64,000 nucleotides of DNA from the NCBI GenBank assembly GCA_003244255.1, contig QHCD01000061.1, forward strand, positions 1 through 64,000, given 5' to 3'. Of the stretch, positions 16,301 to 57,588 are shown in pieces (positions within the stretch are counted from its first letter, which is position 1; each line of letters starts with the position of its first letter). The translations under genes were made by a program, and so were the position numbers. Below the pieces are notes generated by a model. The model saw only the letters and a list, made by a program, of their open reading frames with translations. It made no database searches and was not told the origin of the DNA. The stretch is from Pseudonocardiales bacterium (lineage in GTDB: Bacteria; Actinomycetota; Actinomycetes; Mycobacteriales; QHCD01).

Positions 16301-17885
16301 GGTGCGCGATGCGCTCGGCGTCGCGCTGCCCGTCGGCGTGCCGGGGTCGTTCACCGAGCCGGTCCGCGATCCGCTCGGCGATCTGCTCAGCCGGTACACC
16401 CGCACGCACGGGCCGTTTCATGCTGGCGACGTGGCCCTGCGGTTCGGCCTCGGGCCCGCCGTCGTCGTCGACCTGCTGAACCGGCTGGTGGCGGCCGGTC
16501 GGTTGGTCGGGGGGGAGTTCCGGCCGGGCGGCAGCGGCCACGAGTGGTGCGACGCCGAGGTGCTCCGCCGGTTGCGGCGCCGGTCGCTGGCGCGGCTGCG
16601 AGGCGATGCCGAGCCGGTGTCGCCGTCGGCGCTGGGCCGGTTCCTGCCGGCTTGGGCGCAGCTGGTACCGCCCGGCCGCGGGGCGGCGGCACTCGACCGC
16701 GCGCTGGAGCAGCTTGCCGGCGCCGTCGTGCCGGCGTCCGCGCTGGAGTCGCTGATCCTGCCGGCGCGGGTGGAGGGCTACTCGCCCGCGCTGCTGGACG
16801 GGCTTACCGCCGCCGGCGAGATCAGCTGGTGCGGCGCGGGCGGGCTGTCCGGCGGTGACGGCTGGATCTGCCTGGCACCAGCCGATCTCGCGCCCGCCCT
16901 GTTGCCCGAACCCGACCCGGACGTGGTCGCGACGCCGCTGCACGAAGCCGTGCTCACGGTCCTGGACGGCGACACCGCGATGTTCTTCCGTGCGCTCTCC
17001 GACCGCGTCTATGCGGGCGGCACGCTGGGCTCGCCCGACGACACGCTTCTCGGCGCGGCCGTGTGGGACCTGGTCTGGGGCGGCTGGCTCAGCAACGACA
17101 CCCTCGCGCCGCTGCGCGCCTCGGTCATCGGCCGCGCACCGGTGCGGCGGCCTCCCGCGGCGCGGATGCGCCGTCCCGGCCGGGCCCGGCTGCCCACCCG
17201 GGCCGGACCGCCCACCCTGGCCGGTCGGTGGTCGCGCGTGCCCGACCGCGAAGCAGACCCGACCCGGCGCTCGCACGCCGTCGTCGAGGCCCTCCTCGAC
17301 CGGCACGGCGTGCTCACCCGCGGCGCCGTGGCAGCCGAACGGGTCCCCGGTGGATTCGCCGCCGTCTACCGCGTGCTGCGCGCCTTCGAGGAGAGCGGCC
17401 GGGTGCAGCGCGGATACGTCGTCGCCGGGCTGGGCGCCGCGCAGTTCGCGGTCGGCGGGGCGATCAACCGGCTGCGCGGTTTCGCGGCGGAGAAGCGGGA
17501 CCGGCAGCCGGCACTGGTGCTGGCCACGGCCGATCCGGCGAATCCGTACGGCGCCGCGCTGCCGTGGCCGGACCGCGCAGCGGTGCCGGGCTCGGCCACC
17601 GGCCACCGGCCGGGACGCAAGTCAGGCGCGCTGGTGGTGCTCGTGGACGGCGAACTCGCGCTCTACGTCGAGCGGGGCGGCCGGTCGCTGCTGTCGTGGT
17701 CCGACGACCCGGCCGTCCTGCAGGCCGCGGCCGACGCGCTGTCGCTGGCCGTGCGCGAGGGCCGGCTCGGCCGGCTCGCCGTCGAGCGGGCCGACGGCGC
17801 GGGCGTGCACGAATCGCCGCTCGCCGCGGCGCTGGAGGCCGCTGGCTTCCGCCCCACGCCCCGCGGGCTGCGGCTGCGCGCCTGA
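13353..17885 (+). CDS. lhr: large Lhr-type DEAD/DEAH helicase
   Basis: This is a 1510-residue superfamily 2 helicase. Domain 1 has Walker A APTGSGKT (about 45-52), the DEIH box (VDEIHAVCSTKRGAHL) and SATVRP. Domain 2 has the motif VI region GLQRIGRAGH. The winged-helix and beta-barrel Lhr core and a long C-terminal extension follow, making the full-length actinobacterial form. It acts in DNA repair as a 3'-5' translocase that unwinds DNA or DNA:RNA. ATG 13353 is preceded by GGGAAGG; ATG 13359 is an alternative. It is transcribed divergently from the one-carbon operon, and downstream a GlcNAc-kinase-like gene points towards it. Confidence 0.95.
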   Translation: MAMSAAERFSAATRAWLESAFAAPTPAQLGGWDAIGRGEHTLVIAPTGSGKTLAAFLAAIDRLATTPPPDDPLRRCRVLYVSPLKALAIDIERNLRAPLAGIRQQAMRSGLPVPDIAVSTRSGDTPPEERRTFARRPGDILITTPESLFLILTSGAREALRGVETVIVDEIHAVCSTKRGAHLALSLERLDALLGSPAQRIGLSATVRPAEEVARFLGGRSDVTVVAPPSAKTVELDVVVPVEDLAQMGEPTGELPANAAGAQRRSSIWPAVEERILDLIEAHRSTIVFANSRRLAERLTARLNELAYERAEGAPPESTVDGRMPAEMMAQAGSAAGAPAIVARAHHGSVSREQRAVVEEELKAGRLPAVVATSSLELGIDMGAVDLVVQVESPPSVASGLQRIGRAGHHVGVASHGAIFPKHRGDLVPCAVVAERMTAGQIEAIRYPRNALDVLAQQIVAMVAMEDWTVDDVADLVRRAAPFASLPASALESVLDMLSGRYPSDAFAELRPRLTWDRVTGGLRARPGAQRLAVTSGGTIPDRGMFGVFLLGETPVRVGELDEEMVYESRVGDVFLLGTSSWRIEDITHDRVLVSGAPGVPGKMPFWKGDAIGRPLELGRAIGAFVRELSTVDDAAARRRLAAAGLDPWAADNLLGYLAEQRAATGHLPDDRTIVVERFRDELGDWRVVIHSPFGAQVNSPWSLAIAARLRERFGLDVASMHADDGIVLRLPDTDAEPPDADVAVFDPDEVESIVTTAVSTSALFAARFRECAARALLMPRRGPGRRSPLWQQRQRSAQLLSVASDYGSFPVVLETMRECVQDVFDVPGLQSLMRDLQARRVRLVEVETQQGSPFAQSLLFGYVGMFLYDDDTPLAERRAQALSLDTTLLAELLGQAELRELLDPDAVGEVEAELQRLADDRRARDLESTADLLRLLGDLTTDEALARGATPAWLSELEASRRAIRVRIAGAERWIAIEDAGRVRDALGVALPVGVPGSFTEPVRDPLGDLLSRYTRTHGPFHAGDVALRFGLGPAVVVDLLNRLVAAGRLVGGEFRPGGSGHEWCDAEVLRRLRRRSLARLRGDAEPVSPSALGRFLPAWAQLVPPGRGAAALDRALEQLAGAVVPASALESLILPARVEGYSPALLDGLTAAGEISWCGAGGLSGGDGWICLAPADLAPALLPEPDPDVVATPLHEAVLTVLDGDTAMFFRALSDRVYAGGTLGSPDDTLLGAAVWDLVWGGWLSNDTLAPLRASVIGRAPVRRPPAARMRRPGRARLPTRAGPPTLAGRWSRVPDREADPTRRSHAVVEALLDRHGVLTRGAVAAERVPGGFAAVYRVLRAFEESGRVQRGYVVAGLGAAQFAVGGAINRLRGFAAEKRDRQPALVLATADPANPYGAALPWPDRAAVPGSATGHRPGRKSGALVVLVDGELALYVERGGRSLLSWSDDPAVLQAAADALSLAVREGRLGRLAVERADGAGVHESPLAAALEAAGFRPTPRGLRLRA

Positions 17886-37615: not shown

Positions 37616-38542
37616 GTGTTCGACATCGCAGCGTCGGTGGATCGCTGGCAGCACGACGGGCACGAGGTGGCGCTGGTACGTCTCGTCGACGTGCGCGGCA
37701 TGAGTTCCCGGTGGCCGGGCGCCGTCGCGGCGGTGTGCGGCGGTGAGCAGGTCGGCACGCTGGTTGCCGGAGCGATCGACCGGGTGCTACCTGCACTGGC
37801 CGACACGCCCGGCCCGCACACCGTGCCGATCACCGACGACGACGCCGCGCGCAGCGGACTGGCGTGCGGCGGCGTGATCGACCTCCTCGTGCACCCGGCC
37901 GCCGCGATCCCGGCGACCGGGTGGGCCCGGCTGCGTGCCGGCCAGCCGGTCACTCTCGTCACCGACATCGACGGCGACACACCCGGTCGCACCGTCGTGC
38001 GCGACGACGACCGGATCGCTGTGACCAGCACCCGGATCGAGGTCGATGACGGCGTCCGCCAACTGATCGCGGCGTACCGGCCGGTGACCAGAGTCGTGGT
38101 CATCGGCGACGGGCTGATCGCCGCGTCGATCGGCCGGATCGCCGGCGGCCTCGGCTGGGAGTGCCGAGCGAGCACCGCGGCGCAGGAGAGCGCCTGGCTA
38201 GCGGCGGCACTCGGCCCCGCCGACGGCCTGGTGGTGCTCTCGCACGACGACGCCGTCGACGTGCCCGTCCTCGCGACGGCGCTGCGGTCGGCCGTCGGCT
38301 ACATCGGCGCGCTGGGTTCGCGACGCACGCAGGCCCGCCGCGCCGCCGGACTGCGCGCCGCCGGGCTCGACGAGGCTGACCTGACCCGGATTCATGGACC
38401 CGCGGGACTTGACCTCGGGGCCGCTCGGCCGGAGGAGATCGCCCTCGCCGTCGTCGCCGAGCTGCTGGCCGTGCTCCGGCGTGCGCCCGCGACGTCGCTG
38501 TCGGCCCGCGACGGACCGATCCACCGCGTGACGCCGGACTGA
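37616..38542 (+). CDS. XdhC/CoxI-family protein
   Basis: This 308-residue protein has the XdhC_CoxI N-terminal domain ([20 protein letters not shown]) with CGG in [13 protein letters not shown], and a C-terminal Rossmann domain ([33 protein letters not shown]). Such proteins sulfurate or insert molybdenum cofactor into xanthine-dehydrogenase-type enzymes. No molybdoenzyme gene is nearby, so its client is elsewhere. The start is GTG 37616, divergent from thyX. Its last codons overlap the first element of the operator array that precedes the RHH gene. Confidence 0.85.
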
Positions 38543-38624
38543 CGTCGAACTGACGCCACCGCGCGCTCACACTGCCGTCATCGTGGACTTGACAGACGTC
38601 GGCGCTGACGTCACTATGACGTCA
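38529..38624 (+). promoter_or_regulatory. phased TGACGTCA-type operator array and promoter
   Basis: Eight-base TGACG(T/C)C(A/G) elements begin at 38529, 38540 and 38551 (exactly 11 bases apart). Two perfect TGACGTCA palindromes begin at 38606 and 38617 (again 11 apart), the last overlapping the ATG of the RHH gene. A related AGACGTCG lies at 38594. A TTGACA at 38589-38594 could be a -35 box. Helically phased half sites suit cooperative binding by a ribbon-helix-helix protein, probably the product of the next gene. Confidence 0.7.
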
Positions 38625-39175
38625 TGGACCTGACCTCGTATCTCAGCTCGCTGCGGTCGGATCTGACCGCGGCGGCCGGCGCCGGCTCGGATGAGACGCG
38701 CCGCACCGCCGAACTCCTCTCCGCCGCGCTGGAATCCGCGGCGCGGCTCTGCCTCGTCGACGCGCTGTCGGCCGCCGCCGCCGAGATCACCGCCCGGCTC
38801 GCCGACGCCGGCGGCGGACTTGTCGAGATCCGGATGCGCGGCCGCGAGCCCGAGATCGTCGTGCTGCGGACTCCCCCGGTCGAGGCGATGGGCGCGCCGC
38901 CACCGCCGCCCGGTCCCCCGGGTTCGCCCGCCGCTCCCGACGCTGCCCCCGACGCCGCGGCCGACGACCTGGGTACGGCACGCATCACGGTGCGGCTACC
39001 CGAGTCGGTCAAGACCAGGTCGGACCGCAGAGCCGCCGAGGAAGGAATGTCGCTGAACGCCTGGATCGTGCGCGCCATCACCGACGCGCTCGGCGGTGCG
39101 CGCGACGACGACCGGCAGCGCACGACTCGCCGACGCGGCATCGGCACGCACATCACCGGCTACGCCCAGAGCTGA
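38624..39175 (+). CDS. ribbon-helix-helix regulator with N-terminal extension
   Basis: This 183-residue protein ends in an RHH domain (ARITVRLPESVKTRSDRRAA followed by MSLNAWIVRAITDAL, about 125-165). It is preceded by an Ala-rich helical region (1-85) and a Pro-rich linker. HicB-like antitoxins share the fold, but no HicA-type toxin is adjacent. The next gene encodes a DUF4097 protein, a pairing that suggests local transcriptional control. The operator array overlaps its start codon, so autoregulation is likely. ATG 38624 gives the first stable helix. Confidence 0.82.
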   Translation: MDLTSYLSSLRSDLTAAAGAGSDETRRTAELLSAALESAARLCLVDALSAAAAEITARLADAGGGLVEIRMRGREPEIVVLRTPPVEAMGAPPPPPGPPGSPAAPDAAPDAAADDLGTARITVRLPESVKTRSDRRAAEEGMSLNAWIVRAITDALGGARDDDRQRTTRRRGIGTHITGYAQS

Positions 39176-39259: not shown

Positions 39260-40087
39260 ATGACCGACTTCCCGATCAACCAGACCGTCGAGGCCGCCGG
39301 CCCCGTCGCGGTCGAGATCCGCAATCCGGCCGGCCAGATCAGCGTCTCCACCGCGCCGGGCATCACCGCCAGCAAGGTCCAGATCGCGCCGGCAGACGAA
39401 CAGAACCGCTCCCGGCACGCCGCGCAGAACACCACCGTGACCGCCTCGCCCGACGGCAGCTCGCTGTCCATCGAGGTCCCGGAGCGCTTCGGCCGGGTCG
39501 GTTCCGTCAACCTGACCGTCGTCGTGCCGGACGGATCCAGCGTCGAGGCCAAGACCGCGTCGGCAGACATCAGCATCGACGGAACCCTCGCCAGGGTGAC
39601 CGCGGCGACCGCCTCCGGCGACGTCTGGATCGGTGACGTCGGCGACGATGCCACCGTGCGCACGGCATCGGGCGACGTAACAGTCCGCGGTGTCGCCGGC
39701 ACGACCTCGGTCACCACGGCGTCCGGCGACATCTCGCTCGGCGCGGCCGCCGGCCACGCCGGGCTGTCCACGGCGTCCGGCGACATCCGCGCCGAGTCGG
39801 TGGCCGCGGGCATGCGGGCCCGCACGGCCTCCGGCGATATCACCGTTCGGTCGGCGTCGGGCGGCCGGGTCGAGGCGCAGACGGTGTCCGGCGACGTCGC
39901 GATAGCCGTCCCGCGCGGCATCGTCGCCTGGCTCGACCTCTCGGCCCTCACCGGGTCGGTTCGCTCCGACCTCGACGACGGCGCGACCGCGCCCCCAGCC
40001 GGCGGCGGCCTGGAACTCGCAGCGCGCACCGTCTCCGGCGACATCCGCATCAGCCGCGCGGCGGCCACGCTGGGCGGTGCCGCATGA
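39260..40087 (+). CDS. DUF4097-family beta-repeat protein
   Basis: This 275-residue protein is built from repeated strands with a TASGD(I/V) core (VTAATASGDVWIGDVGD, VRTASGDVTVRG, VTTASGDISLG and further copies), which predict a right-handed beta helix. No signal peptide or membrane segment is seen, so it is probably cytoplasmic. ATG 39260 follows CAGGAG. The function of DUF4097 proteins is not established. It follows the RHH gene by 84 bases and its stop overlaps the next start (ATGA). Confidence 0.88.
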   Translation: MTDFPINQTVEAAGPVAVEIRNPAGQISVSTAPGITASKVQIAPADEQNRSRHAAQNTTVTASPDGSSLSIEVPERFGRVGSVNLTVVVPDGSSVEAKTASADISIDGTLARVTAATASGDVWIGDVGDDATVRTASGDVTVRGVAGTTSVTTASGDISLGAAAGHAGLSTASGDIRAESVAAGMRARTASGDITVRSASGGRVEAQTVSGDVAIAVPRGIVAWLDLSALTGSVRSDLDDGATAPPAGGGLELAARTVSGDIRISRAAATLGGAA

Positions 40088-57097: not shown

Positions 57098-57318
57098 GGG
57101 AGACCCTTTCGTTCCTCATCCCGTGCGCGGGGTACGGATCGACCGCTACCTCGCAACCGGTCTTCGATCGAAGCCCGCGGGTCGTGCCCGAGAGCCACTA
57201 CCGAGGACCGGCCATGGAGCGCGGCAGCGGGTGCGTCACCCCGGCCCGGGCTTGGTGCGTGCGGCGGGTTCGCCGTACGAGTGGCGAGGAGCGGTCCGCT
57301 CCCCTTGGTACGCCGGCG

Positions 57319-57588
57319 TCAGCGGCGCAGGCCGAGGCGCTCGATGAGCGCGCGGTAGCGACTGATGTCGGTGTGCTGCAAGTACTTCAACAGCCGGCGG
57401 CGGCGTCCGACGAGCAGCAGGAGCCCGCGGCGGCTGTGGTGGTCGTGCTTGTGCACCCGCAGGTGCTCGGTCAGCTCGGCGATGCGACGGGTCAGCATCG
57501 CGACCTGGACCTCAGGCGATCCGGTGTCGCCCTCGCCGGTGGCGTGATCGGACATGATCTGCTTCTTGACGTCACTGGCAAGCGGCAC
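57319..57588 (-). CDS. rpsO: 30S ribosomal protein S15
   Basis: This 89-residue S15 contains [40 protein letters not shown], and ends [12 protein letters not shown], nearly identical to mycobacterial S15. GTG 57588 follows AGGGAG about 7 bases upstream and gives the expected length. It sits between ribF and pnp as usual. Confidence 0.97.

Follow-up and report, generated by a model that had tools for sequence, protein, structure and literature searches.

Among the described systems that come closest to the locus analysed here, MetJ is a ribbon–helix–helix (RHH) protein with repeated 8-bp palindromes in promoters, where the met box AGACGTCT is described as occurring in two to five contiguous copies (PMC12925634). 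Arc dimers occupy adjacent major grooves of a 21-bp operator, with Gln9, Asn11 and Arg13 contacting bases (PMC12645479). RelB, FitA, AtaR and MazE6 are RHH proteins with an operator in their own promoter; RelB dimers are described as binding the same face of the DNA with a critical spacing (PMC2812701), and MazE6 as binding an 18-bp site that includes the -10 region (PMC9477884). Toastrack (DUF4097) proteins are known from the Psp/Lia systems, where they are predicted to reside inside the cell and to contribute to the assembly of stress-sensing complexes, and where, in the parts of that source that treat their regulators, they are tied to two-component, PadR-HAAS and LytTR regulators and not to an RHH autoregulator (PMC11237479).

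The present locus shares with MetJ an RHH protein, repeated 8-bp palindromes in a promoter and the GACGTC core that AGACGTCT has in common with the threonine-type box found here; however, the met boxes are contiguous, whereas here the boxes are spaced 11 bp apart, leaving 3-bp gaps, and are built into what is probably a leaderless promoter. The base-contacting Asn11 of P22 Arc aligns with residue 122 of the regulator (in a profile match to an Arc construct), but the Arc operator is a two-dimer site and the 53-residue Arc chains are too short to include the N-terminal domain seen here. A putative operator in the regulator's own promoter recalls RelB, FitA, AtaR and MazE6, and FitA-like genes found in this survey carry the same box pair at -18..+1 as RHH–DUF4097 promoters, although the partners of those proteins are toxins and the partner here is a Toastrack protein, as in Psp/Lia. 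We consider it likely that the array serves the RHH gene as its operator, and that a row of RHH protein on boxes one helical turn apart would repress its own, probably leaderless promoter.

The window (the whole 64-kb stretch of DNA that was analysed) contains seven TGRYRYCA-like boxes upstream of the RHH gene, at -95, -84, -73, -51, -30, -18 and -7 from its ATG, together with the predicted elements of a promoter:

38529..38536, + strand: box -95, TGACGCCG, 7/8 match, within the upstream XdhC-like ORF, at its 3' end
38540..38547, + strand: box -84, TGACGTCG, 7/8 match, overlapping the stop codon of the XdhC-like ORF (38540-38542)
38551..38558, + strand: box -73, TGACGCCA, 8/8 match
38573..38580, + strand: box -51, TGCCGTCA, 7/8 match
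38589..38594, + strand: predicted -35 element TTGACA
38594..38601, + strand: weak box -30, AGACGTCG, 6/8 match
38606..38613, + strand: box -18, TGACGTCA, 8/8 match, its final CA forming -12/-11 of the predicted -10 element
38612..38617, + strand: predicted -10 element CACTAT, 17 bp past TTGACA, a strong match only at A-11 and T-7
38617..38624, + strand: box -7, TGACGTCA, 8/8 match, its final A being the start-codon A and the predicted transcription start

A sequence-only reading of this DNA had described five TGACG elements exactly 11 bases apart, in a group of three and a group of two. Direct reading and scoring bore out this grouping, with starts at 38529, 38540 and 38551 separated by 11 and 11 bp and those at 38606 and 38617 by 11 bp, but the array comprises seven boxes, since TGCCGTCA at 38573 and the weak AGACGTCG at 38594 had been missed, and instead of TGACG the repeating unit is TGRYRYCA, a degenerate palindrome of 8 bp in which positions 3 and 6 track the type of the encoded protein. 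The box at 38573 falls on the same 11-bp grid, so that six boxes called at a match of at least 7/8 lie on one exact grid in the 131 bp ending at the A of the ATG; the box at 38594 stands 12 bp ahead of that at 38606, and the 11-bp spacing thus holds for most steps and fails for those of 12 and 21 bp around the -30 box. Two perfect palindromes are indeed present, and the last of them (38617-38624) covers only the first base of the start codon (A, 38624) rather than the whole codon as had been supposed.

In 20,000 shuffles of the local sequence that preserved dinucleotides, neither a total of six boxes nor six on a grid was ever attained, and a scan of the window outside the RHH locus found at most two boxes on a grid anywhere. 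Single TGACGTCA-like words are not enriched across the window (22 observed vs 29.5 expected), and TGACGTCA was therefore rejected as a window-wide feature; the signal of the array lies in local clustering and phase. The array is real and exceeds the length first reported for it. A third perfect TGACGTCA occurs at 57567-57574 as a solitary copy with no phased neighbours.

The gene that follows the array, and the parts of its product that matter here, are as follows:

38624..39175, + strand: RHH regulator gene, 183 aa, with a Pfam HicB (PF05534) match over residues 120-152
38624..38878, + strand: conserved N-terminal domain, residues 1-85, from a predicted model
38972..39118, + strand: RHH domain, residues 117-165, from a predicted model and structural alignment
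38987..38989, + strand: Thr122 codon, for the residue on the RHH strand from which box positions 3 and 6 are best predicted

The HicB match scores 24.1 bits (cut-off 21) and is confined to residues 120-152. The modelled RHH domain (residues 117-165) aligns with AtaR (6ajm; Z 6.6, 1.8 A, 48 aligned residues), with PutA (2rbf; Z 6.1, 1.0 A, 44 aligned) and also with Arc and CopG; MetJ did not appear among the sequence matches of the protein in the PDB. For the N-terminal domain AlphaFold2 predicts a helix at 4-18, a second at 23-61 and strands at 66-72 and 75-81 (pLDDT 92.7 when residues 1-90 are predicted alone), and the linker between the two domains is poorly predicted. No clear structural match to the N-terminal domain was found in the PDB (best Foldseek E 0.83), nor in a second structural comparison, where the best hit had a Z of 5.7 and 4.3 A over 62 residues. 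An RHH gene with a long conserved N-terminal domain, followed by DUF4097, is thus what the earlier reading had recognized.

Existing annotation calls such proteins 'toxin-antitoxin system HicB family antitoxin' or hypothetical. A HicAB toxin–antitoxin reading was rejected, as there is no HicA neighbour and a DUF4097-like frame stands downstream instead, within about 4.5 kb of the RHH gene at 174 of 177 loci. By its fold and operator the protein is probably an autoregulator, and by its context it is not a HicAB antitoxin.

The protein is present in 45 of the 61 genomes of the order (E<=0.001), and a 47-sequence profile found it in 50 of 148 genomes of the class (E<=1e-8), with Streptomyces, Kitasatospora, Actinomadura, Planotetraspora and Sphaerisporangium among the named relatives. 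The first alignment took 47 of 52 sequences (L009, which has a fused frame, L041, both L043 copies and L046 were omitted), and a later reference alignment 71 of 93 reference sequences. A pattern search for the paired site TGRYRYCA-N3-TGRYRYCA returned 69 sites in the 61 genomes against 11 for a reversed control. When their places were compared by hand, 50 of the 69 lay upstream of an RHH–DUF4097 homologue (two of them from L003 and one from L070), and by a hand count 64 fell in the 45 genomes with a homologue and 5 in the 16 without.

Four of the remaining 19 paired sites lie at -18..+1 of FitA-like RHH antitoxin genes (L060, L061, L062 and L066), all with a FitA-like Pfam match that is above the cut-off in one; three of the four combine the strand R-M-N-L-R with TGG..CCA boxes. 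These cases are a separate RHH subfamily with the same overlap of site and start codon. One of them, L066 (G000:C43:1104-1122), holds the sole other paired site in the genome of the window, at -18..+1 of a gene for a 76-aa FitA-like antitoxin with the strand R-M-N-L-R and the boxes TGGTGCCA and TGGCACCA. Another site (L052) is just ahead of a small gene that looks RHH-like by eye and has no match to a Pfam RHH model at the cut-off, one (L054) is at the start of an ArsR-family gene, and one (L055), which has a TTG and a third box besides, lies 3 bp upstream of an alpha/beta hydrolase gene. Around 1542-1560 of the latter locus the three boxes are 11 bp apart; its hydrolase is unrelated, the genome has several RHH–DUF4097 copies, and it is possible that this hydrolase promoter is a second target. 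On reading, no relation was seen for the other 12.

Across homologues the box sequence drifts between TGACGTCA and TGGYRCCA, and this drift follows residue 122, which occupies the middle of the DNA-facing positions on the RHH strand, with threonine paired with TGA and asparagine with TGG. With boxes chosen blind to positions 3 and 6, half-site position 3 in loci of Asn122 proteins is G rather than A by 159 to 13 at -18 and by 178 to 8 at -30, whereas in those of Thr122 proteins it is A rather than G by 60 to 22 and by 70 to 12, and Ser122 proteins are intermediate (29 A to 11 G at -18; 28 A to 18 G at -30). The -7 box fits poorly for Asn122 proteins (105 G to 76 A). Residue 122 is the best predictor of all alignment columns, with an adjusted R2 of 0.60/0.54/0.43 against 0.37/0.35/0.31 for the runner-up, at three thresholds of down-weighting similar sequences in a set of 172. 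Within each of seven genomes that carry both types, the G fraction is higher for the Asn paralogue, apart from one tie (G032).

Ancestry enters into this association, as Asn122 loci belong mostly to an exporter-linked clade (89 of 101) and residue 122 is therefore partly confounded with descent. On a tree built without the strand residues, which took 114 of the 175 loci and left out most Streptomyces, at least 5 switches of the residue class (T/S vs N) and 7 of the operator majority are required; independent pairs number 5 on the best tree, but there is just 1 on well-supported branches, and with so few a sign test cannot reach significance. Residue 122 corresponds to Thr25 of MetJ, whose strand pattern K-x-T is comparable to R-x-T here. 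The pattern predicts that residue 122 reads the box letters, T specifying TGA and N specifying TGG, and the link supports binding by the gene's own product. Going by this statistical covariation, it is very probable that the promoter is bound by the RHH protein it drives, in line with that part of the autoregulation proposed from the first reading; the repression that it also entails would follow from where the boxes lie.

It might be supposed instead that some other regulator, perhaps a global one, binds the boxes to control the RHH–DUF4097 operon and that the RHH protein acts elsewhere, and the few sites that precede other genes, such as the ArsR-family gene of L054 and the hydrolase gene of L055, would be in keeping with this. 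However, box letters 3 and 6 track residue 122 above any other column, also between paralogues of the same genome, and the paired site is nearly confined to RHH–DUF4097 promoters, as the split of 64 sites to 5 between genomes with and without a homologue indicates, so that we regard a foreign regulator as improbable.

A phased array at the same place in homologous loci, the check that the sequence-only reading had itself named, is found. In the first 52 loci, aligned without gaps from the ATG, a box with a match of 7/8 or better stands at -7 in 48, at -18 in 38, at -30 in 27 and at -29 in 14. Among 175 distinct upstream regions (178 loci were used and 177 genes found; L195 and L198 had no usable start, and L084, which duplicates the window locus, was excluded), boxes matching at least 7/8 occur at -7 in 152, at -18 in 147, at -30/-29 in 157, at -52 to -49 in 111 and at -63 to -60 in 59, against a background of 1.5% per single offset between -115 and -71. 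Some other loci have additional boxes near -72 and -83/-84, and the long array of the window is therefore not unique. At L003 (1255-1418) the array is displaced upstream by 217-246 bp, to the beginning of a 45-codon ORF that precedes the RHH gene; the boxes overlap the ATG of this intervening ORF, which has no Pfam match.

The boxes also coincide with a predicted core promoter, which goes beyond the original account of the locus. The best-kept letters outside the boxes are TTG at -35 to -33 (T 94%, T 69% and G 69% of 52 loci). Within the boxes, A-11 (92%) and T-7 (94%) are kept far beyond their counterparts in box -30 (A 50%, T 52%; 52 loci of the order), as would be expected if a promoter added its own constraint; these letters nevertheless double as box positions, and the -35 TTG is therefore the only independent evidence of a promoter. 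The window hexamer CACTAT matches TATAAT at 3/6 positions, and a consensus promoter scan found no sigma-70-like site in the region upstream of the RHH gene. A -10 hexamer at -12 to -7 would put the start at +1 and make the transcript leaderless. The letters C-1, A+1, T+2 and G+3 merge the last box into the ATG, and an ATG start is found in 176 of 177 genes, as would be required if the palindrome's final A also has to be the A of the start codon. These sequence patterns lead us to infer that a leaderless promoter is interwoven with its own operator; with transcription probably starting at the A of the ATG, the same bases would serve as operator, promoter and start codon.

The position of the boxes bears on two further explanations. 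The RHH protein could be an autoactivator, or a regulator of both kinds, whose boxes from -51 to -95 recruit polymerase and whose core boxes shut the promoter off. Activators commonly bind around -51 and -62, and boxes are found at these places in 111 and 59 of the 175 loci. The RHH protein AmrZ, moreover, is described as both activating and repressing (PMC3325190). Yet the best-kept boxes, those at -30, -18 and -7, cover the core promoter and the start codon, where occupancy should block initiation, and the box at -51 and those more distal are less conserved, which makes activation quite improbable. That the palindromes work in the mRNA as hairpins controlling translation is scarcely credible, even with perfect palindromes adjoining the start codon, for the start predicted at +1 from the -35 TTG and the array would leave the boxes untranscribed from that promoter, and box halves are often unpaired (TGGTGTCA and TGGTGCCA are common among homologues).

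An RNA element was likewise rejected at the array, where an Rfam scan of the window gave no hit. The scan returned Actino-pnp only, elsewhere (RF01688, 64.1 bits, 57156-57212, - strand). A tRNA-Trp gene is located at 17793-17863 (- strand).

Downstream of the RHH gene lie two further genes:

39260..40087, + strand: DUF4097 (Toastrack) gene, 275 aa, with no obvious membrane segment
40084..41100, + strand: alpha/beta hydrolase-like gene, its start overlapping the DUF4097 stop (ATGA)

The DUF4097 match scores 71.8 bits (cut-off 22.9), and the hydrolase-like gene is probably a third member of the operon. The XdhC-like gene upstream of the RHH gene runs in the same direction, and the neighbours in the window with Pfam matches are Thy1, XdhC, DUF4097, the hydrolase and an AlkZ-like gene. 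In a comparison of neighbours at the 152 loci with enough sequence past DUF4097, the hydrolase gene found no match beyond the locus of the window; DUF4097 is followed at 101 of these loci by a DrrA-like ABC ATPase frame and at 71 by a DrrB-like permease frame. In Streptomyces cyaneochromogenes (L122), for example, the order is RHH, DUF4097, DrrA-type ATPase and ABC-2 permease; the window copy has no DrrA-type exporter directly downstream.

Two other arrangements may be mentioned. At L009 (601-1947, - strand) RHH and DUF4097 share a single 449-codon open frame, possibly a natural fusion or a lost stop codon. On pSLUN1 of Streptomyces lunaelactis (L200, 3935-5397) the RHH–DUF4097 pair Lun1/Lun2 heads the lunaemycin cluster and is followed by P450 and ferredoxin genes, with L199 similar in order; the Lun1 entry is labelled 'Unknown' in the description of that cluster (PMC9866976).

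With the array as the probable operator of the RHH gene, RHH dimers would place their two-stranded ribbons in the major grooves of consecutive 8-bp TGRYRYCA boxes, which, being about one helical turn apart, would set the dimers on the same side of the helix. The three boxes at -30, -18 and -7 overlap the -35/-10 spacer, the -10 element and the transcription start, so that bound RHH protein would exclude RNA polymerase and the RHH–DUF4097 operon would be repressed, whereas box -51 and those farther upstream may extend and stabilize the bound row. Occupancy, repression and cooperativity are here inferred from RHH proteins such as RelB. Since Toastrack proteins have been proposed to be intracellular parts of stress sensing, DUF4097 is the first candidate for relief, and our guess would be that it relieves or strengthens repression on an envelope signal.

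A broader and tentative reading, which we think has perhaps a one-in-three standing, is that RHH and Toastrack form a widespread actinobacterial stress switch, in which Toastrack would sense a membrane or drug signal, pull the RHH row off the bases shared by operator, -10 element and start codon, and so free a leaderless operon that ends in many species in a DrrA/DrrB-type exporter; residue T/S or N would set the box letters and thereby insulate paralogues from one another.

No description of an operator of the RHH–DUF4097 family was found in the open-access literature. The present analysis recasts this family from HicB antitoxins or hypothetical proteins to probable autoregulators with a defined operator, and links it to Toastrack proteins and, in Streptomyces, to drug-type exporters. 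The rule for residue 122 relates one residue to one base and is testable with the contrasting boxes TGACGTCA and TGGCGCCA; such a reading rule would allow operators to be predicted in any genome, and the paired proteins and operators offer a natural set for studying changes in RHH specificity. Finally, the way in which operator, promoter and start codon overlap suggests a means by which leaderless genes could be controlled while taking up hardly any additional DNA.
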